Positions 10,237 to 40,192 of a DNA stretch of 64,000 nt are shown in pieces. The position numbers and the translations under genes were made by a program. Below the pieces are notes generated by a model. The model did not search any database, was not told the DNA's origin, and was given only the letters and a program-made list of their open reading frames with translations. The DNA is taken from NCBI RefSeq assembly GCF_900113415.1, contig NZ_FOPH01000005.1:124001-188000 (forward strand). Reading direction: 5' to 3'. Source of the stretch: Oribacterium sp. WCC10 (GTDB taxonomy: Bacteria; Bacillota; Clostridia; Lachnospirales; Lachnospiraceae). How positions within the stretch are numbered: position 1 is the first letter of the stretch; the number at the start of each line of letters is the position of its first letter.

Positions 10237-10264
10237 TGTAAAGCCTTTGATAGTACTTGAACTA

Positions 10265-10769: not shown

Positions 10770-10877
10770 AGAAGCACACCGGAATATCTCTTTTCTTTTA
10801 GTTTTGCCATTTGATCTGTCTGAAAATAAAAATCTCCAAGTACATGTCCAAGAAAAAACAAAAGAAGATATTTAGTC

Positions 10878-11540: not shown

Positions 11541-11646
11541 ATAAATACCTCTCACTCAAACAATTATACCTATATAGCGTATAAATGTCGATAATACCTA
11601 ATTAATGTATAGCAACAATATATACACTATAAACGTATGCTGTTGA

Positions 11647-11671
11647 TAAAAAAAGAAGCCGCTTCTTTTAG
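11647..11671 (-). terminator. Terminator at the end of the BREX operon
   Basis: AAAAGAAGC/GCTTCTTTTTTT with T-run on the minus strand, placed after the MITE-like repeat downstream of the last BREX operon gene. Confidence 0.65.
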
Positions 11672-11674
11672 ATT

Positions 11675-11735
11675 TGGCTCTGTCGCAATAAAAGGTTGAA
11701 TTTTGCGAATATCAACCCCTTATTGTGACAGAGCC
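11675..11735. mobile_element. MITE-like 61-bp palindrome
   Basis: GGCTCTGTCGCAATAAAAGG (11675) and its near-perfect complement ending at 11735 form 24-nt arms around a 13-nt spacer. A one-arm relative lies at 10505. The GGCTCTGT ends look like insertion-sequence terminal repeats. It is too short to encode a transposase. Confidence 0.55.
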
Positions 11736-11765
11736 ATTCATTTTATACAATCAGGTCTTTGTTCA

Positions 11766-12101
11766 TTAGCACTCCTCTAGATACCTTACTTCCTTCCCGT
11801 GGACTCCGGCATATTCTATTTCCGAACGTGTGCTGTCTCCGATATAGCCTCCAACATTAATTACATATATAGAGTCTGCCATATCGATTTTCCTCTTATG
11901 CATGTCATCAAGCATTTCCTTTGTCTGGGAAACTGTTCCTTCGTCCATCCCATCCCAGACTTCATCATCACCGGAGTGTCCAAACATGCCAACACTGATG
12001 ACTATGTTTCCTTCCAATGTCAGCCTCTTCTGAGCTTCTATAAATTCATCTTTAAATCGTGTACTACCACAAAGAGTGATAACAGGATATTTACCAACCA
12101 T
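11766..12101 (-). CDS. Small Rossmann-like protein, last gene after brxL
   Basis: 111 residues from ATG 12101 (ribosome site GAGGTGG). The N-terminus ITLCGSTRFKDEFIEA and the C-terminus VINVGGYIGDSTRSEIEYA are typical of nucleoside 2-deoxyribosyltransferase-like / DUF4406 proteins, which bind nucleotides or their sugars. It sits 73 bp after brxL on the same strand and before the terminator, so it belongs to the BREX transcript. Whether it acts in defence (nucleotide sensing or processing) is inference. Confidence 0.6.
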   Translation of the reverse strand: MVGKYPVITLCGSTRFKDEFIEAQKRLTLEGNIVISVGMFGHSGDDEVWDGMDEGTVSQTKEMLDDMHKRKIDMADSIYVINVGGYIGDSTRSEIEYAGVHGKEVRYLEEC

Positions 12102-12174
12102 TACTTTCCACCTCATACGTTATTGGATGTTTTTTTACATGAATACCTGCCTGACAGAAGCAAATCCACCAGGC

Positions 12175-14301: not shown

Positions 14302-14312
14302 AAATACATCCC

Positions 14313-16829: not shown

Positions 16830-16830
16830 T

Positions 16831-18033: not shown

Positions 18034-18070
18034 CAGAATGGCACCTCCTGCTTATTGAATAAGCCATGTT

Positions 18071-18163
18071 TTATGCGTTAAGCATTTTAATCAAATTTTC
18101 GAGATTTGCTCTCTTATCAGGATTCTCATCCATCATTTCCATCAGAATAAGATAGCATAAATC
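18071..18163 (-). other. 30-codon protein-like extension beyond the nuclease TAG
   Basis: After the TAG of the exported nuclease gene (18164-18166) the same frame stays open for 30 codons to TAA at 18071-18073. It encodes a plausible amphipathic segment (LCYLILMEMMDENPDKRANL and on). It may be the true C-terminus of the nuclease if TAG is read, or a remnant of a lost gene. The next ribosome site lies after it. Confidence 0.4.
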
Positions 18164-19609: not shown

Positions 19610-19612
19610 CTA

Positions 19613-21721: not shown

Positions 21722-21767
21722 ACTACAAATTCTCCTTTTCAAGCTTTGAACTACATAACAAACAATT

Positions 21768-24700: not shown

Positions 24701-25466
24701 GAATCTCTTCCTTTGTGATCTTTGTCTTTTTTGCAAATGCTTCATTCTTTGGCTCAGTATTGTAGTATTGATAAAGCCATCCTATGATCTCGACCTGTCC
24801 GCCCTGCTCTATGTTGAAGTCTTCCTCAGGGATATCGTTCACCAAATGATAGACTACCCCTTCCTTATCTATGGCAGATACATTGAGCAGTACCTCTGTA
24901 TAATCAGAAGTCTTTTCGAAAAGAGCCGGAAGAACTTCATTCAAAGCATTGCACTGCTTGATGAAGAGCATCCTGAAGCATTCATCGAGCTTATTGTCAT
25001 TTTTGAAGCTTACTATCTTCTCTTTCTCTTCTTCCGACAGAGGTAGTTCTGCGTCAAAAGGATTGGTGACGAGGTCAGGTTCCATCTTTCCGCTTTCAGA
25101 AGAAAGTACCCTGATATGTGAAGGAAGATAGTCGTTGACCTCCATGAAACGAACCGCTATAAGTCTGTTGAACCAAGTGTAGGCAACCCCTTCAACGACA
25201 TACTTGTATGCAGTGGCATAGTCTGTCTCTTCTGCCTTCTTGGTTATTACCTTGGCAAGGCTTTCCCTCTGCTTTATTTCTTCACCTGAAATGGCATAGG
25301 GTTCTGCAGTTCCGATATCAAAGAACTGAGTCTCCCTTGTAGACTGTGGGAGAGGACTCTTTATCCCATCCATTGTTACTCCCATAAGTCCTGCCTTGTA
25401 CTGTATGTCTGCAATCAGCTTGTTTCTTGCCCAAATCGCGAAGTTTTTTATAGCGGTTTTATTCAT
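21768..25466 (-). CDS. pglX: BREX adenine-specific DNA methyltransferase PglX
   Basis: 1232 residues, normal for type 1 BREX PglX. The SAM-binding motif IDPCMGSGHILVYAF is near residue 330 and the catalytic NPPYMGFKG near residue 513. Downstream target-recognition and helical regions complete the family layout. PglX N6-methylates adenine in a non-palindromic hexamer-type site, marking host DNA, and is needed for restriction. The start is ATG 25466 after GGAG. It ends in TAG, the only clear TAG stop among the larger genes here; reading past it would run into the ribosome site of the lipoprotein gene, so this TAG is probably a real stop. Confidence 0.93.
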   Translation of the reverse strand: MNKTAIKNFAIWARNKLIADIQYKAGLMGVTMDGIKSPLPQSTRETQFFDIGTAEPYAISGEEIKQRESLAKVITKKAEETDYATAYKYVVEGVAYTWFNRLIAVRFMEVNDYLPSHIRVLSSESGKMEPDLVTNPFDAELPLSEEEKEKIVSFKNDNKLDECFRMLFIKQCNALNEVLPALFEKTSDYTEVLLNVSAIDKEGVVYHLVNDIPEEDFNIEQGGQVEIIGWLYQYYNTEPKNEAFAKKTKITKEEIPAVTQLFTPDWIVRYMVENSLGRMWVEGHPNDSLKKNWKYYLEEAEQEPEVKEKLAEIHSEYAKLNPEDIHFIDPCMGSGHILVYAFEVFMQIYESAGYSKRDAAKSILEHNLYGLDIDDRAYQMAYFAVMMKARQYIRWNQLANAACHVYSIQESNGINRDQLTYFGAGLSDEEKKEAINQVQGLLDTFKDAKEYGSIINVENYDWNLLRRFADNIDVNGQMTFDVMGIDETQEKIRELTNIGETMARKYEVCTTNPPYMGFKGMNTNMAEYLKTNYFDYKSDLFSTFIIKCTSLCKKDGFSGFLSPYVWMFIQSYEKLREYLYHGHTIQTLIQFEYSAFEEATVPICTFVVRNRNINKNGCYIRLTDYIGGMEVQRIKALEAIRNHDCGFYFEADSSTFENIPGKPVGYWVPRFALEAFKGKRIDFYAETKQGFKTGNNDLFLKLWFEVGKNKTALKKENGKKWYPCNKGGDYRKWYGNKSYVVDWENDGSKLKGYKDENGRLLSRPQNIAFNFREGLSWSTISSGPVSFRFSDENMMFESKGSMCFIKNKKDTMPIFAFLNSNVCMYYLKIIAPTLDYSEGAILKLPVISTEMNCNYTIENCIEYSRNDWNSFETSWDYEEHPLVRLSKELWDATSIAASMQYYYGWHTKVSCPLELCFMLWQGECNERFKKLKENEEELNRIFINIYGLQDELRPDVDDKDITVRKADLQRDIKSLISYAVGCMFGRYSLDVEGLAYAGGEWDASKYSTFIPDADNILPITDEEYLEDDIVGLLIAWLKKVYGAETLEQNLDFIAKALGNKGNSSREIIRNYFLNDFFKDHCQTYSVTGSGKRPIYWLFDSGKQNGFKALIYLHRYNADTIGNLRVDYLHRMQRVYESEIGRMQDMIDHSTNSREVGAATKRKEKLQKQLKECREYDEKIGHLALARTELDLDDGVKYNYRKVQLGSDGKFYEVLADSKAIMMDAEKFRAFKK

Positions 25467-25480
25467 CAATTACTCCAATC

Positions 25481-28400
25481 TCAAAACTCGACATTAACGA
25501 TGTCGTTCTGATTAAGTTCCCCAAGAAGTGATTTCCTGAGTTCTTCTATATATCTGTCTACATCCTCTGCCTTTTCGATCCTCCAGGAGGATGTATGCGC
25601 CACATTCTTAATGGTGACATTCTTTGTTTTTTTCTTTTTCGGTACTTCGATAACAAGATCAGTGTTAGGTTCGTCCGGCTTCTGCTTTTTAAGCTGTTCT
25701 TCTCTTGCATTTTTAGCCGCAAGTTCAGCATCGAGATCATTCATCTCATCCAGAAGTCTTATCTTAAGTGCGCTCGCCTTGTCTGCATACGCTCTCAGTC
25801 TCGATACATTGTTACAGGTGTCTGCACCGTCCCATATCTCGCTGAACAGATGGAGATATCCCGCTTTCTTTTCATCCTTATATTCTTTAGTATCTATAAC
25901 TTCTATTACCCTGTCCTTGTCATCTTCAATGGATTTTTTAACAGGGATAGCTGCATTTTCAAGAACTGTCGTGTAGGCGTTCATGAATTTATCTCTGAGG
26001 TCAGGAAGCTTCGGAATCTCTCTGTAAGGAGACTCCAGCTTCACTATCCGTTGCATCTCGGAAACGATATTCTCAAGATTCTTATCCACGATATAAGTCT
26101 TACTGTCCTCATATATATCCAGCATATCCAGGGCTCTTGCGAAGATCTTCTGCTGTTCACCGCTGAAGAAAGACTTTACAGGATCGTAATCTTCTGCATA
26201 ATCCAGAAGATCGTCCTGATTATTTGAGATGTACTCGAAGAACTCCTTAGGGTCCGTGTACTGAACTAAATCCTGCATGAGTTTCTTACCGGAATCTATG
26301 ACCTTCTTTCCCGGGAATGCATACTGGTTGTAATTTATCGCAAGCGCATTCATCTCATTCAGTCTGTTCTCTGAATACTTCTGGAATGTACGCATCACAC
26401 TGTCTTCATCTTCTGTCACAAAAGCGCTTCCGAACAGTTCCTTTGCAACTGTCTGTACCACCTTCTTGTACTTCTCATAAACGTGTCCTCTAACTCCCAT
26501 AAGAAGGGAATCAACGTACTGTTTCCTGATGATGTAGTTTACGATTTCATCAGGAGTCTTGTTAAGAAGATTTACAACAGTACCGTTCACTGTAAGGGAA
26601 ATATCACTTCTCTTGAAAAGTCTCGCTATCAGCCAGTGAACATCATCCTCCACAAATCCGTAAGGAGCACTCATGAATCTGTCCTTGATGGTCTTCATGG
26701 AAGTCTTGATGTGTATCTGAGCATTTCCGGAAATGAAACTGAGAACATCATCAAGTGCGTGAGCATTGGCCTCACCTGTATTTCCAAGCTCAAGCTTTAT
26801 CTGGTTTGTGTCACTGAACATCTTTCTGATACTTGCTTCATCAAAAGCGGTATCTATGTAGGAAAGCTTATGATATACAGTCTGGACCAGTTTGCCTATG
26901 GCTTCATTTATTCTCTGTGTGACTTCTTTTGATGAAAGGTTCGCCACATCCCCGTTCACATATATGGTGGCAGCCTTCAGGGACTCTGTGAGATAAAGCT
27001 TCGCGTTGGAGTTACGCTCTCTCATTTCCACACGCTTTGCTTCCTTGATGGTCTCATACTTTGTGAGCTGTGATGATGTATTGAGACGAAGGAACTTCTC
27101 TATCTTCAGATACGTCATAAGCTCCTCAAGGAATGCTGAGTCGTTAGGTAACAGAACGACAACTTCCCTGCTCGTGCCTGACATCATACGAAGTGTGGCA
27201 TCATCGTTTCCACCGTCATACCATGGTGTTAGGATACGTAAGCCAATGTCATAGTTCTGATTGGACTTATATGGTCTGTCATCCACGGTCTGATTGAATG
27301 AGAATGCATATCTTCCGCTGAAAGCCGGGTATCTGTATCTCTTATCAGAGAATATGTCCTCAAAGATCATCTCTGAGACCTTGTTGATGACTTCAGCCAT
27401 TTCTACATTCTGACTTTCAATCTCACGATTGATTTCCTGCTCTTCATCGGTAAGGAAAACATACAGACTGCCATTCTTCTGTACCAGCATCTGCTGTTGA
27501 AGGATTTTTAGCGATTCTTCAACTCTGTCCTTAAGTTCTATACGGTCGTTGTCAATGTTATCAATCATGAGGCTTGTGATGTTCTCAACATTGGCCTCTA
27601 TCTCAAGGATATACTTGATCATGAAGAGGGTCTTCAGAACATTGATAGTGAAGACATCATCTGTTTTCTTTTCCGGATTGATCTTTGAATTATCAAAGGC
27701 TCTGATGATCACACTTCTGTGACTATGGTCAAGGAAGTTCTCAAGTGCATCATAGAATCTGTGGAAAGGCACAATGGCACCTTCTGTCTCATTCATGATC
27801 TTCACTGCGGACTCTTTGAAAAGGGCGAGCATGGAACGCTCACCTTCTGAAAGGTGCTTTCCGGAAGCTCCATGGGTTCTTATGGATGTAAGGACACTTG
27901 CCAGGAGATTGAACTGGTAAGGTACAAAAGGATATACTCCGGCAAAGTCGTTCTCATCAAAATACAGTTTTTTTCTCTACGCCATCATTAAATACGATAA
28001 GGTTCTTTATAAGTGTTGCCTTCTGTTCGTAGAGAAGTCTCAGAGTCTCTGCACCGGTCTCGTTCTTTGCCAGGATTCTCTTTTTGATTACTTCGTCAAC
28101 ATTGGCAGAAGAAAGAGCAAGTCTTGTGGCAAAACGTCCCTGAATCTTTGAGAAGTCATTGCCCTTTACCTTCATGATAGAGTCAACGTCCTGCTGACTG
28201 GTGACAACTACCCATGCCTTGCCCTTACATTCTTTGCTGAGCTCTTCTCTTACTGTCTGGAGATTCAGCATGAGGTTAGAGTCGTCACCGATATACTGAC
28301 CGACTTCATCAACCATGAATACAACATGGCGGTTCTCGCCCTTCTTATCGATATACTCTTTTACACGCTTTGCGAAGTCTTCAATGCTGATGCGATAAGT

Positions 28401-29099
28401 CTCTGACGCTTTTTCACACCAGTTACGCGCTGCCGCCTCGCTCATGAACCCAATGTTCACAAGAGCTTCGACTACATCGTCCTGTATGAAATCAAATTTA
28501 TGTCTTGATGATTCCCAGGCAGAGCCATATTCATCTTCAAAGGCTTCTTTGAACTGTTCATATTTTCCTTCGTCTGTGAGCTGGCTTTCCAGATCAGCAA
28601 GGTGCGGCAGGCTTCCGCAGAATCCCTGCATCTCGTTGAAGACCTTGAGGAAAACATTTACGATTGCATCCTTGTTCTGCTTACTGTTGCTGTCACTCTT
28701 CGAATCAATGTTGAAAAGGATGACATCATTCGGAGTCTGGGCAGCAAGCTTCATATCTGAGAGCACCATGGCGTCTGAGATCTTCTTGTCATCGATAAAA
28801 TAATCAATGGCCCTTTTACCATCGATTTCCTTGTTCGCAAGGATGTATGAAAGGATCTTCAGGAAGTGAGATTTACCACTTCCGAAGAAACCGGAGATCC
28901 ATACACCGATTTCGTTAGTATTTCCGTTAATTCCTTTTTTATATGCTTCAAAAAAATCGGCAAAATGCTTCTGTAATTCTCTTGTAACTACATACTCTTC
29001 AAGTTCCTGCGATACATTTGTTTCTTCGCCCTGACCCACGATGATGACACCCTGGATTTCACGATCTATAGGCTTCTGAAACATATCTTTTATTTGCAT
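25481..29099 (-). CDS. brxC: BREX ATPase BrxC, disrupted by a frameshift in an A7 tract
   Basis: Type 1 BREX BrxC is about 1200 residues. Here residues 1-380 (29099-27957) carry Walker A ISGFFGSGKSHFLK near residue 70 and Walker B HVVFMVDEVGQYIG, and end in a premature TGA after VEKKTVF. The frame one base away continues at once with KLYFDENDFAGVYPFVPYQF and runs to 25481, through the helical C-terminal half. The switch lies at seven A on the coding strand (T7 at 27968-27974); removing one A restores a single frame. Possible causes are a real mutation, a slippery phase-variable switch, transcriptional slippage or a homopolymer sequencing error. BrxC is essential for BREX, so as written the system would be off unless slippage occurs. 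Confidence 0.85.
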
Positions 29100-29251
29100 G
29101 ACTTCTCCATTCCGCTGCATAGATAAGCAGCAAAGATTCCATCTGTTAGGTTAAAAAATAGTGGTACAAAGAACCTGCCTGGCATAGATGAGTGGCATAT
29201 ACCTGCTCACTTTCCATAACGTGCTTCGTGCAGATCCTTTGAATGTATTAG

Positions 29252-29830
29252 TTATTTCACCAGTTTGAATGCCCGATAATAGTTATCATCTTTTATCTCA
29301 TCAAACAGGACCAGCTCCTGCTCGTCATAAGTACCTGGGAAGAACATCACAACCGGTGCCTTTACAAATGCCTGATGCAGGTTATTAAGCACTTTATGTG
29401 AACGCAAGATAGGAAAACATTTTCCTACACCGGTCAAAAATACTACTGCATTATCCGGAGTATGATCCTTAATATACTGAACGATCAAACTGTCATCATC
29501 ATTTATCTTCATGGAGTTGGTGACAGCCTTTGTGATCCTTTCAAGTCCTTTTTTTTCTTCGAATCTATAGCAGTTTTCCATAAAGTCGTTTTCTTTCAGG
29601 AAATCTATGATAATGTCATAAAGGTCAAATACTACGAGTTCAAAATCCTCTCCGCCCTTTGAGTTTCTGTTCTTCATATATTTAATACGCTCTCTAACTT
29701 CGAGTTCAAACTGAGGAGGATAATCAAAAACCCAATAATTTACTTCATTAGCTCTTCCGCTATTCTCTCTGAATGAAGGTTTCTTTATAGCCTCCTCCAT
29801 CTTATCGAGACGTTCCAAAAAATCTGCCAT
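29252..29830 (-). CDS. brxB: BREX protein BrxB (DUF1788)
   Basis: 192 residues, the usual BrxB length. Family blocks are seen: WVFDYPPQFELEVRERI and VFLTGVGKCFPILRSHKVLN, then PVVMFFPGTYDEQELVLFDE. A core type 1 BREX component of unknown biochemical role. Its ATG overlaps the last base of the brxA stop. 152 bp separate its stop from the brxC start; that gap contains nothing I recognise. Confidence 0.93.
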   Translation of the reverse strand: MADFLERLDKMEEAIKKPSFRENSGRANEVNYWVFDYPPQFELEVRERIKYMKNRNSKGGEDFELVVFDLYDIIIDFLKENDFMENCYRFEEKKGLERITKAVTNSMKINDDDSLIVQYIKDHTPDNAVVFLTGVGKCFPILRSHKVLNNLHQAFVKAPVVMFFPGTYDEQELVLFDEIKDDNYYRAFKLVK

Positions 29831-30453
29831 TATCTGATACCCTCCATTGCCTTTGCTATAGGAGCATAACCGTAATCATCGAGCCAATGCTTAAGTACCG
29901 GATCTAATACCGGCTTTAGGATCTTCCTCTCTGATGCCCTGCTGTACTCATCCAGTAGTCCTGCCTCAAAGAGCATAGTCTTGTAGCTTCTTGCAAGTCT
30001 TTTTACGGTCATTTCTGTAAGCTTTTCTATTTCAGGATGCTGTTCCTGCTTATTTTTGAAGAATATACTTATGTCTGCATCAGTAAGTACATTACTTCCG
30101 ATTATCAGTTTTTCTCTTATGACCTCGTACATAAAATCAAAGAATAAGGTGTCATGAGCAAGAACCGCAGCCAAGGCAAATAGTTTCTGTGTTGAAATAT
30201 CACTGTCCGTAAACAGTGGATAAAAGCTTTCATCCAGAGATTTGATCCTAGTAGTGACTGTCGAAAGAACCATCTTTGCTCTTGCAGGCGTGCTCGCTCC
30301 AAATATATTTTCTTCTTCATTTAACTTCTTAATATCGTCAAATGATTTTCCTGATGACAGCAGCTGGACTTCTTTTCTGAATTCCATAAACCAGAAGGAG
30401 AACTTCACAGCTCCGGCGCTATACTTATTTCTCTTCACTTGAGCTGCCTCCAT
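29830..30453 (-). CDS. brxA: BREX protein BrxA (DUF1819)
   Basis: 207 residues. It begins with KYSAGAVKFSFWFMEF and has the winged-helix-rich DUF1819 body ending in KPVLDPVLKHWLDDYGYAPI. Characterised BrxA binds DNA. It overlaps the regulator gene by 29 bp, indicating co-translation, and ends one base into brxB. Confidence 0.93.
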   Translation of the reverse strand: MEAAQVKRNKYSAGAVKFSFWFMEFRKEVQLLSSGKSFDDIKKLNEEENIFGASTPARAKMVLSTVTTRIKSLDESFYPLFTDSDISTQKLFALAAVLAHDTLFFDFMYEVIREKLIIGSNVLTDADISIFFKNKQEQHPEIEKLTEMTVKRLARSYKTMLFEAGLLDEYSRASERKILKPVLDPVLKHWLDDYGYAPIAKAMEGIR

Positions 30454-30655
30454 CCTCAGGAATCATTTCCATCATGTCACCTACGTCGCAATTAAGGTAT
30501 TCACAGATTCTGGTTATGACATCCATGGAGATATTTTCATTTTTGCCCATTTTGGCTATAGTATTAGGACTGGTCCTGACTGCCTCGATCAAATCGGACC
30601 TTTTCATGTTCTTATCTATGAGCAATTTCCATAATTTATTGTAACTAACCCTCAT
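30425..30655 (-). CDS. XRE-family regulator of the BREX operon
   Basis: 76 residues: a compact Cro/CI-type helix-turn-helix (KRSDLIEAVRTSPNTIAKMG, then VITRICEYLNCDVGDMME). First gene of the operon, behind a ribosome site AAGAGGTAATC and overlapping brxA. By position it is likely to autoregulate the defence operon. Confidence 0.88.
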   Translation of the reverse strand: MRVSYNKLWKLLIDKNMKRSDLIEAVRTSPNTIAKMGKNENISMDVITRICEYLNCDVGDMMEMIPEDGGSSSEEK

Positions 30656-30694
30656 CTTTGATTACCTCTTAACATAAAATCAACAACATAATGA

Positions 30695-30726
30695 TTTTAG
30701 CATAGATAATCTTGGAAATATATAAT
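30695..30726 (-). promoter_or_regulatory. Candidate BREX operon promoter
   Basis: An extended -10 (TGCTAAAAT on the minus strand, -10 at 30695-30700) stands 40 bp before the regulator ATG. The -35 is weak (AT-rich, about 30718-30726). AT-rich partial palindromes around 30730-30780 could be operator sequence for the regulator. Confidence 0.4.
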
Positions 30727-30790
30727 CTATAGGTTGTTATAGTTATAGTCTCGTAAGTTTCTTAATCTATTAAAATAATCTCGAAAACAT

Positions 30791-30856
30791 AAAAAACACC
30801 TCCTCATATATGTACATTCAGTTTTTATTCTGAATATACAATACACGATGAGGTGT
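30791..30856 (-). terminator. Terminator upstream of the BREX operon
   Basis: ACACCTCAT pairs with GAGGAGGTGT on the minus strand, with an inner TTCAG/CTGAA hairpin, followed by T6. It insulates the BREX promoter from the small lipoprotein gene upstream. Confidence 0.7.
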
Positions 30857-30972
30857 ACGTTAAAAACCGCAGTTCATATGTTTGGGTATTACGCTGTAGC
30901 ATTAGATTCTAATAGCCACATAAAGCAACAATACTCATTATCTGTACTACTGTTTTATGATCACTTTCAAAC

Positions 30973-31203
30973 TTATTTTGTTCGTAGAATCACATTGACC
31001 GAATGTGTAAGATAGACAGTACCATCGGCAGCCTTGATCTGAATCATATCCGAATTTTCGTAATCCGTCCAGGAAGATACCTCCACAGTACCTATACCAT
31101 TGATGTCAGCATATTTATACGCCCATGTTGTGTCTACTATTGTTCTGTTGCATCCTGCAAGAATTAATCCTAATAAAGCTGTAACTACAAACATTTTCTT
31201 CAT
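30973..31203 (-). CDS. Small lipoprotein
   Basis: 76 residues with a lipobox at LILAGC (Cys18). The mature part is a short domain (WAYKYADINGIGTVEVSSWT and on) typical of small Clostridia phage or island lipoproteins of unknown role. Ribosome site GAGGTAA. It precedes the BREX operon and is separated from it by a terminator. Confidence 0.7.
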   Translation of the reverse strand: MKKMFVVTALLGLILAGCNRTIVDTTWAYKYADINGIGTVEVSSWTDYENSDMIQIKAADGTVYLTHSVNVILRTK

Positions 31204-31255
31204 TTTAACATTACCTCATATAAAAACTATGATCAATCTTCATAAAATAACATTA

Positions 31256-31803
31256 TTAAATCTCATCTGAGTGCATCCTCATTGCTCCACGGATCAAAAA
31301 ATATAAACACCAGAACCATATGTTTTCATCGTCTGAATCATCGAGCATTCGCTCAAAAACACCATTTATAACCTGTTTAAATCCGGGACCGGCCATAAGC
31401 ATCAAATAAGCCCCGCCTACACGCGTATAAGTTGTTATCTCCTCAACTAACTCTTCAAGATTATCGGTTTTATAATCATTATATAATGAGGTAATATGAT
31501 TGAGCTGTTGAATACAGTCATTCGTCTTTCCATTCATTTCTGCTTTAAAAGCATTAAACCTATCACTTGTATATCCGTTATCATTAATGGATATAATCTC
31601 TTTTATAACAGCTATACATGTTTTGATGATACCTCTCATCTCATCATCTGTATAAGCACATCTAAATGTAATATCTTGTATAGGTACCTCATAACATCGA
31701 CCATCCGTTGTTTTTCTCCGGTTGCAAAATCATCTATTATCCGTTCTGCCAGAGCATCTGTATAGTCATCCTGCAAAAGATCAAATTTTGATATTTTAAG
31801 CAT
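31256..31803 (-). pseudogene. Unknown protein split by a frameshift at an A5 tract
   Basis: From ATG 31803 (AAGGAG upstream) the frame reads MLKISKFDLLQDDYTDALAE and on to FATGEK. Past the A5 at 31711-31715 it becomes nonsense and stops at 31636. The frame that includes the 127-residue ORF (31256-31639) picks up directly with TTDGRCYEVPIQDITFRCAY, so one added A would give a single protein of about 182 residues. Family unknown. It is the second homopolymer frameshift near the BREX operon. Confidence 0.55.
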
Positions 31804-31841
31804 GTTGTGCTTCTCCTTCTCTTTTCATAGTTTTTGCTTCT

Positions 31842-32078
31842 TTACTGCACGCACTTTTTGGTTCGGAATCCTTTGCAAAGTTTTCCATTTTTAACTGCAC
31901 TATCTTCTGGCAGGCACCCCCAACAACCCATGTCACTTGTAAGATTCTCGCAATCCCCGCACTTTAGTTCTTTGTTCTGGGATAATGCATCATATCGTGG
32001 CTCTACATCTGGTGTTTTTGATAAAACATCCAGGCAGTTCCCCTTTGACCTTTGTATGGTAAGATCTTGTTCTGCCAT
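31842..32078 (-). CDS. Small cysteine-rich protein
   Basis: 78 residues with CGDCENL, CWGC and a later Cys pair (LCKGF, KKC), suggesting a zinc or Fe-S site. Ribosome site AAGGAAG upstream. No family recognised. It ends 38 bp upstream of the frameshifted gene, so the two could share a transcript. Confidence 0.55.
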   Translation of the reverse strand: MAEQDLTIQRSKGNCLDVLSKTPDVEPRYDALSQNKELKCGDCENLTSDMGCWGCLPEDSAVKNGKLCKGFRTKKCVQ

Positions 32079-32488
32079 ATTCGCCCACTGCTCTTCCTTT
32101 GCTTAACTACTTCTTTACATTATCTTACTCTCAACGAATCAGCAAAACAAGGCACGGCTTTAAGGCACATCAATGATAATTATTTGAATAAATGGTACGA
32201 TTCTTACACCCTCTTCTACAGGATTAATTTTAGACAGACTCTCCTTCCCAATTTTGGGTATAAAAAATGCCGAAATATGGGTTTTTTTAAATATCCCATA
32301 TTTCAGCATCTTTATTATTGTGGTGGATTATTAACCTTAGCAGGAAATACAATGCATTTATAATCACCCATATCCTGGGTTAATCCCCTATCCGATAGGG
32401 TTTTGGATGATTTGATATCTCCTATAATCGCACAATAGATCACAACATTAACCTCTTCTTTTTAATATCTTAATCTGTATTATGTCAT

Positions 32489-32668
32489 TGTTGCCTTATA
32501 ATGGCAACATTAGTAATGTTGCCATTGTGTCGGATGAGGAAAACAGTCACCCGTCTAGTAATATCTCTTTTTATCATTCAATCTCTTAAAATGTAGAATT
32601 CTACATTTTTTTGTGTTCATATTTATCATCGGCAACATTTGTAATCAATAATTTTGTAGAATTCTACA
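32489..32668. repeat. Cluster of palindromic operator- or partition-like sites
   Basis: GTTGCC-TTATAAT-GGCAAC-ATTAGTAAT-GTTGCC (32490-32523) makes two overlapping palindromes. GGCAACATTTGTAAT (32631) is a further half site. TGTAGAATTCTACA occurs twice, at 32592-32605 and 32655-32668, exactly 63 bp apart. No gene is seen in 32079-32831. Could be a plasmid-type origin or partition region, or operators. Confidence 0.5.
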
Positions 32669-32831
32669 TTTTTTCGGAATATGGCTATAACTGCAGGTAT
32701 GTGCGAAAGCGCCATTATCACTAGTGATGTACTGAAGCATCGTATAAATCCTCTATTGACATTTTGTGGGCTTTGTACCTCTTTTTGTCATTCGTTATAG
32801 ACCTGATTCTTTATTTTTTATTTCACACACA

Positions 32832-32860
32832 AAAAAAGAAGCGGAAAATCGCTTCTTTTA
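32832..32860 (-). terminator. Terminator of the mobilisation operon
   Basis: AAAAGAAGCGATTTTCCGCTTCTTTTTTT on the minus strand: an AAGAAGCG/CGCTTCTT stem with a T-run. It lies 70 bp after the DUF6040 stop. Confidence 0.75.
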
Positions 32861-32928
32861 GTCTTATGTTCTGCTCTTATTACAGAAAAATAGATTTCTT
32901 TTGTTCTCGTCATGGAAGTCATAGAACC

Positions 32929-33807
32929 TTACTCTTTTGAACGCTGCGAGCGTTGACTTGCCACAGCCATTATCTTTAAATATATATAATTTACCAACAG
33001 CCACACTATGACAAGGTTAACTCTCAGCCACGTAAGCCTGTCTGCGAACTATACAAGCGGCGCCAAACTTAGAAGAGCCACAGTCATACTCCCTATATCC
33101 TGTGCTATATCACGCTACAGAGTTACGCTCCTACGCGCTATCTAATATATTAAACCATACCCTATTGCCACTGTGGCAACAAATGTAAATACTGTCAGCA
33201 ATCCGGCAATAATAATATTTATATTTACGTACTGGATCATCTGTTTAATTTTGTATACCGTTTTACTCATTTTGACTGCAATATCAAACGGTATTTTTAA
33301 AATCGTGAATGCATACTATAATGCATCCGCAAAATCTCTTGAAAATCTAACAGAATTAATTCCGGTAAGTAACGTTACAAATATACTATATAACAAAGCT
33401 GTTATTGTTATTCCATAGACAGCATTAATCTTTTGCCTGTACTCTCTTTGACATAGGTCACGATTCTTTTCCGTTAGTTTTTTTGCTTTCTAGGATAGAA
33501 CCCGATCATATTGCTTTTGCATTTTTGAGGCTTGATTTTTAAAGTTTTCGGCTTCAGCAAGACGTTTCTCTAGTTCTAATTCTTTTTTACGGTAGTCTTC
33601 ATTAGCGAATGAAATCATCGTCTTGATCTTGGCTTTCATATCGGTGATTACATTCTTTAATTTCACATTCTCGGTCAGTAATCGCTGATTCTCCATCAAC
33701 AAACTCTCTATCGTCTCGGACTCTTCGTTCGATTTTATCAATCTGTCGTTCTTTTTTGCGTTTTCGTTCTCGTTCTTTTCTGAGTTCATTCTGTCTCTTA
33801 AATTCAT
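32929..33807 (-). pseudogene. DUF6040-type mobilisation protein with five in-frame TAG codons
   Basis: One frame of 293 codons from ATG 33807 to TAA 32929-32931. It is a charged coiled coil (MNSEKNENENAKKNDRL, then ELELEKRLAEAENFKNQASK), then LTEKNRDLCQREYRQKI, then three to four membrane segments (AVYGITITALLYSIFVTLL; IIIAGLLTVFTFVATVAIGY; IGSMTVALLSLAPLV). The sequence keeps family character to the end but is broken by TAG at 33490, 33316, 33142, 33115 and 33049. There is no TAA, TGA or frameshift. At least one TAG (LAPLV-TAG-FADRL) falls where relatives as I recall them have Trp. It overlaps the relaxase 3' end. Recoded or decayed; see finding. Confidence 0.7.
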
Positions 33808-34597
33808 TAAGCAGCCCCTCTTTAGAAATATCCATATTAAATGATTTACTTAAGTTGGTATCGCGCACCTTATCACCCTTGTCATTTTCAAAGGTAATAT
33901 GTTTTCTATTATCTGTCCAAGTGGTATGCCACCCTCGTTCCTCCATTTCTTCAATAAAACAATCTCTGCTACAACAATCAGCCTTTGCTTCAAACACCGC
34001 ACTACCACAATCAACGACATAACTCTTTTTTGACACATCCGCCAAAAGCTTGTATTTATCTTTACTCCATGCACCAACCGCTCCATCCTCCATGACAGTG
34101 CCATCATAATGCATGCCCTTTGCTGGTACAGACAGTCCTTTTTCAATGCACATTTTATTTGTTAAGTCTTTCATTCTTTGCAGATCAGCTCTGCTATTTT
34201 GGAGTTTTAAGCCGTTTACCCATGACACGGTATTAGTCACAAGATGTATATGCAAATGCTTCCTATCCTGATGTACTGCTATTAAAGTCTGATGATCTGG
34301 AAACTATTTTTCAGCAAATTCTTTGCCAAAATCTAAAGCCTGGACCGGAGTAATTGGATCATCAGGTGCAAAGGATATGACATTATGGTTATACATACGA
34401 CCACTATCCTTATCCTAAATCTTTTTTTCAGTCACAAAGCTTTGATAAACTGTATCCTAGTTTATTTCATCCGGGGCTGGTCCGGTCATATATACAAGGT
34501 AGTCTGTGGTCTTTTGTTCCCTCAGTACATATTCAATGCAATTTCGAAGTGCACCGTGGCTCATGGTTTTGCTGTTGATTGTCTTGTTAATTGCCAT
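33602..34597 (-). pseudogene. MobA-type relaxase with three in-frame TAG codons
   Basis: A continuous frame of 332 codons from ATG 34597 to TAA 33602. The N-terminal domain is a relaxase: SHGALRNCIEYVLREQKTTD, DTVYQSF, DSGRMYNHNVISF and the metal-binding HQDRKHLHIHLVTNTVSW with its paired histidines. TAG occurs at 34457 (after DEIN), 34415 (after EKKI) and 34304 (after FAEK); the last two fall where I recall Trp in relatives. Otherwise the protein looks intact, with Trp also written TGG elsewhere. A relaxase nicks oriT and leads the strand into a recipient. It overlaps mobC and lies next to the oriT-like structure. Confidence 0.75.
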
Positions 34598-34926
34598 TCC
34601 ACATCTACCTCCTGCTTTATGCTCTTAACCTCATCTGCAATCTGTAATAATGTTTTTACTGTAGGTATCCGTCCTTGCCCATTGGCCACATGTGCCATTT
34701 GATTAAGGTTTGTCCCCATGCCTCTTAATTGCCTATCGATGTCAGCTAGGATTATATTTTTATTTTTCAACTCTTCTATTACCTCCGCTGATGTAATCTG
34801 ACTGTTTAAACAAGCCTCGATTATATACATTTGCTAAGTCAGTCCAGATTGAGTGACTTTTTCCTTCAGCTGTTCGTATTCTTCAGTCGAAAGACGTAAT
34901 AATATTGCCTTATTTCTTTTACGCAT
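34561..34926 (-). pseudogene. MobC-type mobilisation accessory protein with one in-frame TAG
   Basis: Frame of 122 codons from ATG 34926 to TGA 34561. It starts RKRNKAILLRLSTEEYEQLK (ribbon-helix-helix-like) and is interrupted by TAG at 34834 (codon 31). It continues QMYIIEACLNSQI and ends with a typical MobC tail (RQLRGMGTNLNQMAHVANGQ). MobC proteins help the relaxase open oriT. It ends 37 bp inside the relaxase start, so the operon arrangement is intact. Upstream lies the oriT-like inverted repeat region. Confidence 0.72.
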
Positions 34927-35041
34927 AATATGTTCCTCGCAAAAATATGATTGAGTTCTGAAAATATAATTTTTATTTCAAAAGCCTCCTTCCTATATCC
35001 AGCACCAAAAGAATATCGCCTTTAATCCAAAGCAGGATCCA

Positions 35042-35142
35042 AGGGTGCAACCCTGGCAAGTTTAGTTAGCAGCCCTAAAGGCTGCTAACGATGGCCGGTG
35101 TATATACACCGGACGAAACTTGCCTGACAGCTTAAGGCTGTC
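35042..35142. other. Candidate oriT: branched inverted repeats next to mobC
   Basis: Outer arms GGCAAGTTT (35055) and AAACTTGCC (35116) enclose two perfect hairpins, GTTAGCAGCC/GGCTGCTAAC and CCGGTG/CACCGG. They are flanked by AGGGT/ACCCT (35042-35054) and GACAGC/GCTGTC (35126-35142). A non-coding structured block directly upstream of mobC is where the transfer origin of such elements normally lies. Confidence 0.6.
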
Positions 35143-35182
35143 TGTGGTCTTTAGATTGAAGGAAGAGGAAGCAGGAAGAATT

Positions 35183-35270
35183 AGCTTTTTTTAGGAGTGA
35201 TAATCTTTGCAAAGTGCGTCTCCCTTGCCGGAGAGGAGCTTTGCAAAGATTATCGATGCTAAAAAAAGCT
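35183..35270. repeat. Long near-perfect hairpin beside oriT
   Basis: AGCTTTTTTTAG and GATAATCTTTGCAAAG (35183-35214) pair with CTTTGCAAAGATTATC and CTAAAAAAAGCT (35239-35270), giving about 28 bp of near-perfect stem around a 24-nt loop. Could be a single-strand origin, a terminator or a recombination relic. No gene in 35271-35512. Confidence 0.6.
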
Positions 35271-35512
35271 TTTGGGGGTGAAAAGATAAGAGGAGAATTG
35301 AATCATTATTTTGGAATCTTATCCATCACGTCAGTGGTATTAATGGATTCTTCCTGTATCACGATTGTGGTATTTACATATCATTCCATTATCTTGCTTT
35401 AATAATCTACCCACAAATGTATCTCCGTCTTCAATTTCAAGGATCACTTACTTTGTACAGATAAGTTTTTATAGCTATATAAGTGTGACCGGAATACTGA
35501 TTATTATGCCCA

Positions 35513-36031
35513 TCACAATAGCCTTTGTGCATCTACCGGACGATAACTCAGCTGGAATCGTCCATCTTCCTTGGCTTTGATTAGCTTGCTAAGGGCTTCT
35601 GCAAGAATTATATCAATTACTTTTGATCGCTCGATATTTGATAGTTTATCGCCTAGCAACTGGTCCATCATTCCGATAGTTGTTATGGATAATGTTAGCT
35701 TTTTCACAGCAGTACCTTCTTGTCTTTTACCGTGATCAATCCAAATAATCATTAGAGGTTTATCTTTATTTAATTCTTCCGGATTACCATCCATGGTATC
35801 AACAATCCCTTTTCTAAAACCAAGTTTTTGGCAAATAGAAGCAAATTGAGAATATGAAAATTGGAAGGTTCCATCATCATAGTCCGCGACCGGGCCATTC
35901 TAATACTTTTCTGCCAGATTTTTCTGTATTTCTCTCGGCATATTCAAAAAATCATCCTTTGAGTACTTTGCACTAAGTCTGTTTATTTTTGCTGCACGCT
36001 GCTTATGTTCTTTGTTATTTTCAATATCCAT
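35513..36031 (-). pseudogene. Unknown island protein with one in-frame TAG
   Basis: Frame of 173 codons from ATG 36031, with a strong ribosome site (AAGGAGCTAATTAT), to TGA 35513. Protein-like throughout: DIENNKEHKQRAAKINRLSA, then LAEKY-TAG-NGPVADYDD, then FQFSYSQFASICQKLGFRKG and KPLMIIWIDHGKRQEG. The TAG is at 35900-35902 (codon 44). No family recognised. Position between oriT and the integrases suggests a maintenance or regulatory role. The good start signal argues that the full frame was, or is, translated. Confidence 0.6.
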
Positions 36032-36178
36032 ATAATTAGCTCCTTAAAAATATTTTGGTCTTACTCACTAGGCACAAAACTTTTTTATGTCCTATTTAAT
36101 AAGGTCCAAGAACAATATGTCTATCAAATTATAAGGATAACTGTTTTTTTAGTCATAAACGTCAGTGATCTCCTAAAC

Positions 36179-37423
36179 TCAAGCAATAACTTTATGACAT
36201 AATGGCATGTTATCAAATGCAGAAAGAATATTTGCTATACGCTTTTCTTTTTCTGTACGTGTCAGTACATAGTAATATTTCTTAACTGTGTCAACATCAT
36301 TACGGAGGAGACAGGCTGCAGCTTCAACAGAGCCGCCATTGTCCATAAGATTAATCGCCATGGAGCCTCTCATAGAATGAGGCTTTAGATTTTTGTCAAT
36401 TCCCGCCTGCTTAATCCATTTTTTAAATGTGTTGCTAATATTCCCTGCGCTGATCATATTACCATGAATGGTTTCAAATACTAAAGCATCTCCGCTCTTG
36501 CCGGCACATCTATCCTTAAGTATATCTATGATAGAATCAGCAATTGGTACGTAATCAACAGAATTGTCGGTTTTCATAATGTATTTTTCGTTGGAACGGT
36601 TTCTTCTGAAAAATACACGCTTGTTATCAAAATCTATATCTTCTACGTGAAGAGCCGCACACTCTCCGTCTCTGGATGAAGTTAATAAGGCAGTCTTAAG
36701 GAAATCTGCCATTAACGCAGACTTTTTCTCTTTACGCTTATCATCACAAACATCTACAAAGGACTGTATTTCAGATTCGGTCATAAAATCCTCTTCTGTT
36801 TTCTTTTTGCGTGCCTGTTTAAACGGTTTAAGAATATATGCAGGATTACGATCAAGATTATTTACAGCACAGTACTCATCGATAACTGCTTTAAGGACTT
36901 TGATAGCTCGGTTTCTGTGAGCGATTGAATAGTTCACACGCTCTTCTGCATGCTCTTTTTTACTGTTATGATGCTTATCATAAGTTGCTGCCTTTAAATC
37001 CTCCAGCCAATCATGTAAACTTCTAACGTTTATTTGAGATATGGGCATACTTCCGATGTTGTGCTGCTTGATAAAAGTAACACAGCTATTTTTTATAGGA
37101 GTAATGGTTACCTGACTGATCTTTTTACCTTCTCTTTTCTGGCTATCCTGGTTTTTAAGGGCGGAAATATATACATCTACATAGTCATTAAGAGGGAGTT
37201 CACCATTTTCTGCATCGTATTCATTCTTTAGTTCTTTAGCTCTTTTTTCGGCGTTGCGTATAAGTGCATGTTTAGCCTCAACATCAGTACTACCATATCC
37301 ATCTAATCTCTTTGACTTACTTATATCATTAAAAAAAACAGATGCTCTAGCATTTCTTCTTCCGTTCTTATCTCTGTAATGTATTTCCTTAATAATAAAA
37401 CCTTTTCCAGCATATACCTTCAT
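36179..37423 (-). CDS. Tyrosine recombinase (island integrase 2)
   Basis: 414 residues: an AP2-like N-terminal arm domain (GSTDVEAKHALIRNAEKRAK), a SAM-like core-binding domain and the catalytic domain. Catalytic residues appear as SSRDGECAALH (Arg), KPHSMRGSMAI (His-x-x-Arg) and KKYYYVLT (Tyr). A paralogue of the neighbouring integrase at 37536-38771. No ribosome site problem at ATG 37423. A two-integrase arrangement near one end is uncommon for simple elements. Confidence 0.88.
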   Translation of the reverse strand: MKVYAGKGFIIKEIHYRDKNGRRNARASVFFNDISKSKRLDGYGSTDVEAKHALIRNAEKRAKELKNEYDAENGELPLNDYVDVYISALKNQDSQKREGKKISQVTITPIKNSCVTFIKQHNIGSMPISQINVRSLHDWLEDLKAATYDKHHNSKKEHAEERVNYSIAHRNRAIKVLKAVIDEYCAVNNLDRNPAYILKPFKQARKKKTEEDFMTESEIQSFVDVCDDKRKEKKSALMADFLKTALLTSSRDGECAALHVEDIDFDNKRVFFRRNRSNEKYIMKTDNSVDYVPIADSIIDILKDRCAGKSGDALVFETIHGNMISAGNISNTFKKWIKQAGIDKNLKPHSMRGSMAINLMDNGGSVEAAACLLRNDVDTVKKYYYVLTRTEKEKRIANILSAFDNMPLCHKVIA

Positions 37424-37535
37424 TTATTTAGCACACTCGCTTTCATAATTTTGAAGATAAAATGTGAGAAAAATAAAAAATGGATGAAAAATAAGATTTT
37501 TCATCCATTCCAATTAGTTATGTATTGTTTTATTA

Positions 37536-38771
37536 TTATTCTTTGCACGATTCCATCAATGATAAAGCATCAACAAGTACCGTTCTTCTCTTTTCTCTGG
37601 CCTGCTCTGTCAACGTATAATAATATTTCATCACGGTCTCTAGCGTATCTCTTAAGTAATCTGCTACAGCCTGAGGTGGCACTCCGTTGTCCATTAGGTG
37701 AATTGCCATGGATCCACGTAATGCATGCGGTTTAAGCTTCTTTTCAATTCCTGCTTCCTTTATCCATTTTGACATGACATTGTAAATGTTACCGGGGCTA
37801 AGTAAATTACCATGCATTGTGGCAAATATCCTATCCGATGGCTCCTTGTTTGCGCATCTCTTCTTTATTATAGATAACGCAGGTTCTATGAGAGGGATGC
37901 TGTTTATCGAATTGATTGTTTTCATATCGTACGTTTCTTCGGTCCAGTTGCGACGGAAATATAGTTCATTTGTTTCGGGGAGATAATCTTCTGCATGCAA
38001 TGATGCACATTCTCCTTCTCGGGACGCGGTAAATAACAAAGTCATGAAATAGTCTGCCATAAGTTCTGTTTTTTTATGTTTCTGCTTTTCTTTACAATAA
38101 TCTACAAATAAATCAAATTCTTTTCCAATAAGGAAATTGTCAGGAGTCTTGTGCACATTGGGCTGCGGAAACAGTTCCAAATTATCGGCAGGATTCTTTT
38201 CGTTTACACCTTTATAGTAGTTATGCATTACGAGTTTAATTATTTTTACGGCACGATTAAGATGTGTTGAAGAATAATACTTAAGTTCCATCTTATGTTT
38301 TCCTTTTTTTAACCTATGTATGTCATATCTTGCTGTCGATAGACGATTACGCCAGTTAACAAGGTCTTTATAAGTGATTTCTGATACCTTTTTCTTGCCG
38401 ATGATATCTTCATAAATAAATGTCTGACAACTTCGCTCTATTGGTTGGATAGTCGAGTCCTTAACAGCAGTACGTCTTTTTTTAAAGTCAAATTCATCTT
38501 TTTTTTGCTTTAACAGTTCCTGTACACTATCTTTAAGAGCTAATGCCCCGGCTTTATAGTCATAACCGTACCTTATCTCTTTCAAAACGATATCTGCCTT
38601 TTCCATCAATTTTCGATAAGCGTCTTTTTCAGTAGCCCCACTTGCTTCAAGACGCTTGCTGGTATCATTTAAAAAGCAGAACGTAGCTCTGGCATACACT
38701 ATGTTATATTTATCACAATGTTTCCTGTATTTGATCTCTGTGTGCTTGAAAAATTCATTTTCTCTAGCCAT
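37536..38771 (-). CDS. Tyrosine recombinase (island integrase 1, next to attR)
   Basis: 411 residues from ATG 38771 (GAGAGG upstream; the frame extends to 38807). It shares layout and motifs with the next gene: TASREGECASLHAEDY (Arg), KPHALRGSMAIHLMDNG (His-x-x-Arg) and VMKYYYTLTEQ (Tyr). It lies 230 bp from the right attachment site, with the ACCCCACTTTTTT arm-type repeats between, so it is the more likely enzyme for integration into the rlmL-like gene. Confidence 0.88.
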   Translation of the reverse strand: MARENEFFKHTEIKYRKHCDKYNIVYARATFCFLNDTSKRLEASGATEKDAYRKLMEKADIVLKEIRYGYDYKAGALALKDSVQELLKQKKDEFDFKKRRTAVKDSTIQPIERSCQTFIYEDIIGKKKVSEITYKDLVNWRNRLSTARYDIHRLKKGKHKMELKYYSSTHLNRAVKIIKLVMHNYYKGVNEKNPADNLELFPQPNVHKTPDNFLIGKEFDLFVDYCKEKQKHKKTELMADYFMTLLFTASREGECASLHAEDYLPETNELYFRRNWTEETYDMKTINSINSIPLIEPALSIIKKRCANKEPSDRIFATMHGNLLSPGNIYNVMSKWIKEAGIEKKLKPHALRGSMAIHLMDNGVPPQAVADYLRDTLETVMKYYYTLTEQAREKRRTVLVDALSLMESCKE

Positions 38772-38850
38772 AAAAAAAGAACCTCTCTTTCTGAATCTAG
38801 GGGACATCCTGTGCCGCTTAAATTCTTTAAAAGGTTCTTTTCGAATTATG

Positions 38851-38890
38851 TTTTACCCCACTTTTTTGACCATTTTACCCCACTTTTTTA
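38851..38890. promoter_or_regulatory. Arm-type recombinase sites, right end
   Basis: TTTTACCCCACTTTTTT at 38851 and ATTTTACCCCACTTTTTTA at 38872, in direct repeat and matching the motifs at 7326-7432. The promoter of the integrase probably overlaps. Confidence 0.55.
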
Positions 38891-38998
38891 TACAAAAAAG
38901 TGTTTATACCATGAACTTACTGCATAAACATGCATTAACCTGCATATAGATGCACTCAATTTAAAACGGTCAAAAAGCCTCCGGAGCCTTGATTTTCC

Positions 38999-40192
38999 TT
39001 ACTTTTTCTCGAAATCATGAGGTTTATTCTGGTTTGTCATACGTCCTGTGTATGAATAGAAGTAGGTCTTCATCATACCATTATAGATCTTACGGTTCTT
39101 ATCGGCCTTACCAAGATACTTCTGTGAATCCTCCCAGGCTGTAATGATATGCATAGCCCAGCTGTCAAGACTCTGATAAGCTTCCTTAAGCTCTGTGTAA
39201 AGCATAGGAAGATTTCTCTTATCTTCGATACGCTCACCGTAAGGAGGGTTACTAATGATGTACCCGGCCTTTCCGCTGTGTGAGAAGTTTGCAACATCTC
39301 TAACCTGAAGGTGAATGATCTTGTCTACGCCTGCACGTTCAGCATTCTCCCTTGCCACAGGTATAACATCAGGATTAATGTCGTATCCCTGAATGTCTAT
39401 CTTCTTTCCTTCCTTTGTCATACCGGTTTCGAGAAGCTCTGTATCCACCATCTCATTTGCCTCATCAAAAGCATTGTACCAGATCTTCTTGTCAATGAAG
39501 TTAGTCCAGGTCTCAGAGATAAATGCTCTGTCCATACCCGGAGCGATATTGGCAGCGATCATTGCAGCCTCTATGACAAATGTTCCTGAACCACACATCG
39601 GGTCAACCAGCGCATGATTCTTATTCCAGCCAGACTGCATGATGAGTGCTGCAGCGAGAGTCTCTGTGATCGGAGCGAGACCCTGTTTCAGACGATAGCC
39701 TCTCTTATGAAGTGACTCTCCTGATGTATCAAGACATACTGTAAACTCATCCTTGTATGCAAATACTCTCACCGGATACTTTGCACCATGCTCCTCAAAC
39801 TGAGAGATACCGAAATACTCACCAAGTCTTGAGACCATAGCCTTCTTCATGATTGACTGAATGTCTCTTGTTGAGAAAAGCTTTGATTTAACCGAGCTTG
39901 CCTTGGTTACCCAGAAGCTTCCGTCCTTCGGTATATACTCTTCCCATGGAAGCTTCTTTGTTGCCTGGAACAGTTCCTCCCAGGTCTCAGCCTTGAAAGA
40001 ACCAACCTTAAGGAGAATTCTCTCAGGTGTTCGCATAAAGATATTGGCACGTGCGATGGCATCGGCATCACCGATAAATCCTACACGTCCGTCTGTTACT
40101 GTAGTAATGTCATATCCGAGATCAATGACCTCTTTTTTTGTTACTGCTTCAAGACCAAAATGACATGGAGCAACAAGTTCAAATGTCTTCAT
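38999..40192 (-). CDS. THUMP-domain 23S rRNA guanine-N2 methyltransferase, RlmL/YpsC type
   Basis: 397 residues (ATG 40192 after GGAG; ATG 40204 is an alternative). An N-terminal ferredoxin-like/THUMP region (FELVAPCHFGLEAVTKKEV), then a Rossmann methyltransferase with VDPMCGSGTFVIEAA and the catalytic IISNPPYGER near residue 312. Its last 12 codons are the right attachment site. The insertion therefore regenerates the 3' end and the gene stays intact (ending HDFEKK). Confidence 0.9.
   Translation of the reverse strand: MKTFELVAPCHFGLEAVTKKEVIDLGYDITTVTDGRVGFIGDADAIARANIFMRTPERILLKVGSFKAETWEELFQATKKLPWEEYIPKDGSFWVTKASSVKSKLFSTRDIQSIMKKAMVSRLGEYFGISQFEEHGAKYPVRVFAYKDEFTVCLDTSGESLHKRGYRLKQGLAPITETLAAALIMQSGWNKNHALVDPMCGSGTFVIEAAMIAANIAPGMDRAFISETWTNFIDKKIWYNAFDEANEMVDTELLETGMTKEGKKIDIQGYDINPDVIPVARENAERAGVDKIIHLQVRDVANFSHSGKAGYIISNPPYGERIEDKRNLPMLYTELKEAYQSLDSWAMHIITAWEDSQKYLGKADKNRKIYNGMMKTYFYSYTGRMTNQNKPHDFEKK
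39003..39034. repeat. Right attachment site (attR) of the island
   Basis: The 32-bp sequence shared with 7193-7224, inside the last codons of the rlmL-like gene. The distance between copies is 31,810 bp. Confidence 0.85.

Follow-up and report, generated by a model that had tools for sequence, protein, structure and literature searches.

In-frame TAG codons in the mobilisation genes of an Oribacterium integrative element very probably served as sense codons

TAG is the only stop codon that interrupts the mobilisation genes

Oribacterium sp. WCC10 carries, on a 64,000-nucleotide stretch of its genome (assembly GCF_900113415.1, contig NZ_FOPH01000005.1, positions 124,001 to 188,000; the whole stretch is called the window below), an integrated mobilisable element whose mobilisation genes are interrupted by in-frame TAG codons. 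From comparison of sequences, we conclude that these transfer genes have very probably used TAG as a sense codon. Four of them, namely mobC, the relaxase gene, a third mobilisation gene and a gene of unknown function at 35.5 kb, each form one continuous minus-strand frame that is broken by TAG only, at one, three, five and one positions, respectively. The mobC gene (34561..34926, 121 codons) has its TAG at 34834-34836, and Pfam MobC and a NikA-like match were found on its homologue in a second genome (G320, below). The relaxase gene (33602..34597, 331 codons) has TAG at 34457-34459, 34415-34417 and 34304-34306, with PF03432 on the piece after the TAGs; the third gene (32929..33807, 292 codons) at 33490-33492, 33316-33318, 33142-33144, 33115-33117 and 33049-33051; and the 35.5-kb gene (35513..36031, 172 codons) at 35900-35902. 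The second coordinate of each pair is the top of the codon, and the positions in a preliminary description of this DNA were the low bases.

That description had counted ten in-frame TAG, no TAA or TGA and no frameshift in about 920 codons, and this was borne out when the frames were re-read: the four genes together hold 916 codons with 10 internal TAG, 0 TAA and 0 TGA. A random sequence of the same composition would be expected to hold about 32 TAA, 19 TAG and 19 TGA in the 916 codons. In a one-step mutation model, run with transition weight and AT bias set in five ways, TAG made up 0.29-0.32 of new stops, and ten TAG out of ten would arise by chance with a probability of 4e-6 to 1e-5. Judged by eye, the bases around the TAGs share no common motif, as had been stated before. 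The name DUF6040 proposed for the third gene was dropped: no Pfam family was found on its 105-aa piece, and the G320 piece gave one weak unrelated match below the cut-off. No TAG interruption was seen in the BREX, integrase and SatD genes of the same element. Beyond the four genes first noticed, a further gene near the left element end, an accessory helix-turn-helix gene on the minus strand (8177..8743), has an in-frame TAG at 8483-8485 and may really end at a second TAG, 8195-8197.

A diverged sister module also carries only TAG stops

A DNA search of 17 genomes of the genus gave matches in three, namely the genome of the window itself (labelled G000, a 3.64-Mb draft of 53 contigs with the window on contig C28), G320 and G302. 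The G320 match covered most of the relaxase gene and of the third gene at 64% identity, and that in G302 was 29 bases long. The G320 module lies on a 97-kb contig (C7), which has a DnaB-like helicase gene and appears plasmid-like. It contains eight TAG and no TAA, TGA or frameshift, with one TAG in mobC (codon 6, where the start is less sure), two in the relaxase gene, five in the third gene and none in the 35.5-kb gene; in the one-step mutation model, eight TAG out of eight would arise by chance with a probability of 2e-4 to 7.5e-4.

Three TAG columns are common to the window and G320, comprising both G320 relaxase TAGs and one TAG of the third gene. Where the window alone has TAG, G320 has Q, F, H, Y, W, Y and L; where G320 alone has TAG, the window has M, Q, G and W, if the mobC N-terminus is left aside. 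TAG in one copy thus stands against Trp in the other twice and against Tyr twice. In the congener G302, mobC, the relaxase gene and the third gene are all intact; its relaxase has Tyr, Trp and Phe where the window has the three TAGs, and its third gene has Trp where the window and G320 share a TAG. Moreover, the homologue of the 8-kb helix-turn-helix gene on G320 C7 (36.6% identity over 131 aa) has one TAG at another position, which faces Trp in the window, and the TAG of the window gene faces Met in the homologue. A second gene family of both replicons thus also carries TAG, which supports the sense reading.

The two replicons share another region: 865 bp around the SatD gene (10872-11736 in the window, G320 C7:38712-39576) are 97.3% identical, far above the 64% of the mobilisation genes, suggesting recent sharing, with DNA moved between the two replicons or acquired from a common source.

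Constraint on the TAG-containing genes

The proportions of synonymous (pS) and non-synonymous (pN) differences between the window and G320 were calculated downstream of the TAGs. Over the 263 codons of the relaxase gene that follow the last shared TAG, pS was 0.80 (saturated) and pN 0.29, and the 35.5-kb gene after its TAG gave 0.82 and 0.26. Constraint was weaker after the first TAG of mobC (pS 0.66, pN 0.42) and of the third gene (pS 0.55, pN 0.32). At columns that are invariant in close intact relaxases, the window keeps 64/70 and G320 65/70 residues (more than 90%), with two TAG columns set aside in each TAG relaxase, and intact full-length relaxases keep 72/72 to 72/78. This test used 14 close rows, of which L087 lacks the N-terminus; L091 was left out as a near copy of L090.

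Taken together, TAG-only stops in two modules, the exchanges of TAG with Trp and Tyr, the conserved residues and the downstream constraint point to TAG as a sense codon. The earlier proposal of an amino-acid reading of TAG, past or present, is thus supported by the eight TAG among the eight stops of G320, the exchanges and the conserved residues kept.

The residue at the TAG sites is probably aromatic

Log-odds scores were summed for each residue over 15 unique TAG columns, using 20 of the 27 relaxase matches (E 1e-60 or better) plus G302; besides the pair, homologues were few for the third gene (6) and absent for the 35.5-kb gene (0). Trp scored 11.4, Tyr 6.2, His and Phe 1.6 each and Met 0.4, with the rest below 0 and Gln at -1.7. 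Among 5000 resampling draws, Trp was best in 3891, Tyr in 764 and His in 253. As a control, draws of equal size were made for seven residues, and each residue came out most often as itself, 1461 (Gln) to 2000 times out of 2000. Of the one-step routes to TAG, 0.27-0.30 start from Trp or Tyr and most of the others from Lys, Gln or Glu, and only two of the 15 columns (mobC 31 and third gene 106) are mainly or partly Gln. The call for Trp is weakened by the average score per column, which is 2.61 for real TGG codons vs 0.76 for TAG, and Shulgina and Eddy (PMC8629427) caution that the stops of pseudogenes lean to Trp. We therefore suggest that the TAG residue is most likely aromatic, Trp and then Tyr, the preference for Trp over Tyr being weak. 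The preliminary description had placed at least three TAGs at Trp sites; Trp is indeed the best of the 20 residues, but the sites are mixed.

Host code and ancestry of the module

Several findings on the host code and on the ancestry of the module weigh against a sense reading. No tRNA with a CUA anticodon was found among the 75 tRNA matches in G000 (ARAGORN on loci, Rfam and patterns) or among the 54 in G320. The tRNA candidates scored were 150/224 in G000 and 150/187 in G320, both genomes being about 97% complete, and four G000 matches that ARAGORN left uncalled at default settings read as other anticodons. The window contains no tRNA, and on G320 C7 no ARAGORN tRNA was obtained in L149-L153 (five of the six stretches) and no Rfam tRNA match on the contig. 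The preliminary description had suggested a suppressor tRNA in this host or a former one; for this host, these searches do not support it. It had also proposed a search for a pylTSBCD set, and PylS exceeded the cut-off in none of 21 genomes, 18 having weak sub-threshold matches. Further, RF1 is present in the host without internal stops, and TAG ends 32 of the 245 open reading frames (ORFs) of at least 250 aa in a 545-kb sample including G320 C7, as an ordinary terminator. With an intact RF1, TAG as an ordinary terminator and no CUA tRNA found, the host code looks standard.

The ancestry of the genes adds to these points. Constraint is slight over the final 38 codons of the third gene (pS 0.60, pN 0.50). 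In a relaxase tree from which six distant rows were dropped, no member of the close set has longer end branches than the two TAG relaxases (1.15 and 1.08, the next being 0.86), and the tree separates these two (starred branches); they were grouped in 2% of 200 bootstrap trees, and constraining them together cost 15.9 log units (approximately unbiased test, p 0.0515). A single origin is thus unproven, and the long end branches and separate placement suggest that the constraint may partly predate the TAGs; the comparison does not separate constraint that acted earlier than the TAGs from later constraint. In identity, too, the two mobC genes each lie nearer to other genera than to one another, while the third genes are each other's nearest (49.6% vs about 30%). 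With such discordant relationships, the module may be mosaic, and the shared relaxase TAGs may be inherited or may reflect two separate origins at identical Tyr and Trp sites. The preliminary description had named the lack of an amber-decoding tRNA and the decay of sister copies by TAA, TGA and frameshifts, both together, as evidence that would count against it; no such tRNA was found in the genomes searched, whereas the sister module shows no such decay.

Loose patterns and tRNA loci

A loose CUA-tRNA pattern matched two places in G000. One is a tRNA-Arg. The other, C33:73523, just upstream of an open frame (rhodanese-like by eye), gave no ARAGORN tRNA at default settings and no CUA tRNA at lowered thresholds. 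In relatives, the loose pattern occurred in at least 137 of the 145 genomes, and a control was similar in size. A strict pattern matched in 88 of 395 genomes, within the genus only at C33:73523 of G000, and no CUA tRNA was called by ARAGORN at the 35 loci tested. Viral contigs held at least 82 CUA tRNAs, in the 80 loci listed. With CUA tRNAs so plentiful there, we conjecture that a visiting phage could supply a decoder.

Other tRNA loci of the two hosts were recorded. G000 C18:70300-73726 is a tight array of at least 14 tRNA genes, with Trp, two Tyr and Gln included, and an RNA-ligase gene lies just downstream. The ordinary tRNA-Trp of both hosts (G000 L047:155-226, G320 L160:105-176) has, in our reading, a T-C mismatch atop the anticodon stem. 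A partial tRNA-Trp copy is found at G000 C15:339405-339459 and G320 C10:82948-83001, about 58 bases being identical with differing flanks; it is followed by a terminator-like stretch and looks like an attachment-site remnant.

Search for further TAG copies

Homologues of the module were sought beyond the genus. The relaxase profile matched in 71 of 395 genomes, and among the places listed internal stops were found only in G000 (3 TAG), G320 (2 TAG) and G339 (2 TAA), the last being a distant relative. The third-gene profile matched in 5 of 397 genomes, a set from which G320 was absent, with five TAG in G000 and none in the four others. None of the 22 mobC and 27 relaxase matches from homologous loci has TAG at these columns, and the few TAGs in their stop-to-stop frames lie, as we read them, before the start or past the natural end. 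The nearest named relaxases found, from Lachnospiraceae and Butyrivibrio, are 48-51% identical. In IMG/VR there was no TAG copy of the relaxase, third, 35.5-kb or 8-kb gene, and plasmids gave no DNA match and no TAG copy of the 8-kb gene. Relatives of the relaxase were found in 330 plasmid records and 13 phages, all less than 60% identical when compared by identity alone. Another relaxase-like frame is present at G000 C18:19784-21415.

In a frame scan of the 545 kb, TAG was rarer than TGA or TAA among the joins listed, and the rows of a homology frame scan included at least 48 TAG, 155 TGA and 46 TAA. Such raw counts are no evidence for TAG reading elsewhere in the host. Apart from the mobilisation and 8-kb genes already described, the TAG rows listed comprised one DUF1016-type gene on C18 and short stretches. 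That gene (G000 C18:76660-77871, DUF1016/YhcG-type) is a homologue of window 16834-18051 with one in-frame TAG, and could be simply a pseudogene or one more TAG gene. A codon-usage screen for TAG genes missed even the known ones and was dropped.

Organisation of the element

The element (7193..39034, 31.8 kb) lies in the 3′-end of an RlmKL-type methyltransferase gene (rlmKL) and is bordered by 32-bp direct repeats, one at each end. The left repeat (7193..7224) is accompanied by a displaced copy of the RlmKL C-terminus, and the right repeat (39003..39034) lies within the 3′-end of the RlmKL-type gene (38999-40204). The element contains a BREX cluster, a SatD-family gene, two tyrosine integrases and the mobilisation module. 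The BREX cluster (12175..30453, minus strand) comprises brxL, pglZ, a YhcG-type nuclease, an endonuclease, an unknown gene, an Eco57I-type methylase, brxC in two pieces, brxB and brxA. The reading frame of brxC shifts at a poly-A run (27832-27990), leaving the gene in two pieces, through real decay, phase variation or an assembly error. Another gene (31256-31814) is split by a frame change, and its G320 counterpart is intact (L115:3781-4320, 179 aa); frameshift decay thus does occur beside the clean mobilisation frames.

On the minus strand, a conserved non-coding stretch with an inverted repeat (35115..35283) probably represents the origin of transfer (oriT); it shows 75.6% identity to G320 over 172 columns, and the inverted repeat was found by self-match. 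In both species the third gene starts about 190-200 bases inside the relaxase gene in another frame (33602-33807; G320 L115:9557-9744), and the overlap is TAG-free. The two integrases (36179..37423 and 37536..38807, minus strand) both match PF00589. The element thus has the integrases and attachment repeats of an integrative and mobilisable element, and a relaxase by Pfam and profile. No mating-pore family was detected among the scanned ORFs between 7.2 and 39 kb, small ORFs being outside the scan, or in 10 ORFs (Pfam) and 10 ORFs (PHROGs), partly overlapping sets, of contig C18 as a possible helper.

Discussion

We consider it rather probable that TAG is a sense codon now, or was one through most of the history of these genes, read, likely as an aromatic residue, by an amber-decoding tRNA that lies outside the sequenced hosts. 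The decoder would come from a phage, a plasmid, a helper element or another host. Where it is present, full-length transfer proteins would be made, as far as the sequences allow us to predict; where it is absent, ribosomes would stop at the first TAG and the element would stay put. It may either be supplied from outside now, which would make transfer conditional as the preliminary description had suggested, or have been lost with a former host. A narrower proposal, that UAG as a Trp (or Tyr) codon acts as a lock, with mobilisation only where an incoming phage, plasmid or helper brings a suppressor tRNA, is offered as a speculation that we think somewhat unlikely to hold in this form.

Other explanations have to be considered. 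TAG might be a former sense codon that is now dead, the modules having come from a TAG-reading host or period and standing as unread, recent pseudogenes in ordinary hosts. The standard host code and the lack of a decoder in the assemblies fit this possibility, as do the still clean frames, which would be expected if the loss were recent. However, two diverged modules (64% DNA identity) in two species would both need to have arrived recently, and the collections searched yielded no source copy in which TAG is read; we regard this explanation as possible, though not the likelier course of events. That the genes are ordinary pseudogenes, with random nonsense mutations that were all TAG by chance, is improbable: all 18 internal stops are TAG, without a frameshift, in two modules, the invariant relaxase columns are kept (64/70 and 65/70), and both G320 relaxase TAGs fall on TAG columns of the window. 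Trp, Tyr and Gln sites are one step from TAG, and a lean of pseudogene stops to Trp is noted in PMC8629427, yet Lys, Gln and Glu should be the commonest sources, and Trp and Tyr score best. The frameshifts in the nearby brxC and 31.3-kb genes, the two TAA in the distant G339 relaxase and the long end branches of the TAG relaxases nevertheless agree with decay.

Ordinary near-cognate tRNAs could insert Gln, Tyr and Trp at UAG, and low natural read-through by such host tRNAs might hold the proteins at trace level, the residues that face the TAGs including all three. The tRNA-Trp of the hosts has the anticodon-stem mismatch described above, and tRNA-Trp with a 4-bp anticodon stem has been linked to UGA reading in one study (PMC13092985); what that study reports, however, is UGA and not UAG reading, and these genes contain no UGA. 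Moreover, one gene has three TAGs and another five, over which low read-through would compound to a negligible yield, and we think this explanation very unlikely. An assembly or sequencing error, conceivable in a draft genome of 53 contigs, is hardly credible for two separate genomes whose diverged modules agree in some TAG sites and differ in others, with no common context seen.

If TAG is sense in these genes, stop-codon recoding, which is known in phages, extends here to the mobilisation genes of an integrative element and a plasmid-like contig in standard-code hosts. Conditional decoding would be a new kind of control over gene transfer, and decoding from a former host would be the trace of an undescribed UAG-reading bacterium or element. 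Annotation pipelines would label such genes pseudogenes, so more of them may be hidden; a literature search of open-access papers found no report of TAG-written mobilisation genes.

The element resembles the integrative and mobilisable elements of Firmicutes in its integrases, attachment repeats, relaxase, MobC and probable oriT, and differs from them in that its mobilisation genes contain in-frame TAG. TAG-recoded phages (translation table 15, UAG as Gln, e.g. Crassvirales) likewise have amber codons in genes of a mobile element within a standard-code host, and are reported to carry amber suppressor tRNAs in about half of cases (375/715; PMC11210395). In contrast, no CUA tRNA was found in the element here, Gln scores below Trp and Tyr, and only some of the genes carry TAG. 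In pyrrolysine coding, UAG is a sense codon in hosts that also use UAG as a stop; here, however, PylS was below the cut-off in the 21 genomes, and there are many sites per gene, at aromatic positions and in mobilisation genes. The plastid code of Balanophoraceae (table 32) reads UAG as Trp, which is the best single residue here, albeit a weak call; there the code holds for the whole plastid, whereas here the TAG codons stand in the transfer genes of hosts whose own code is standard.

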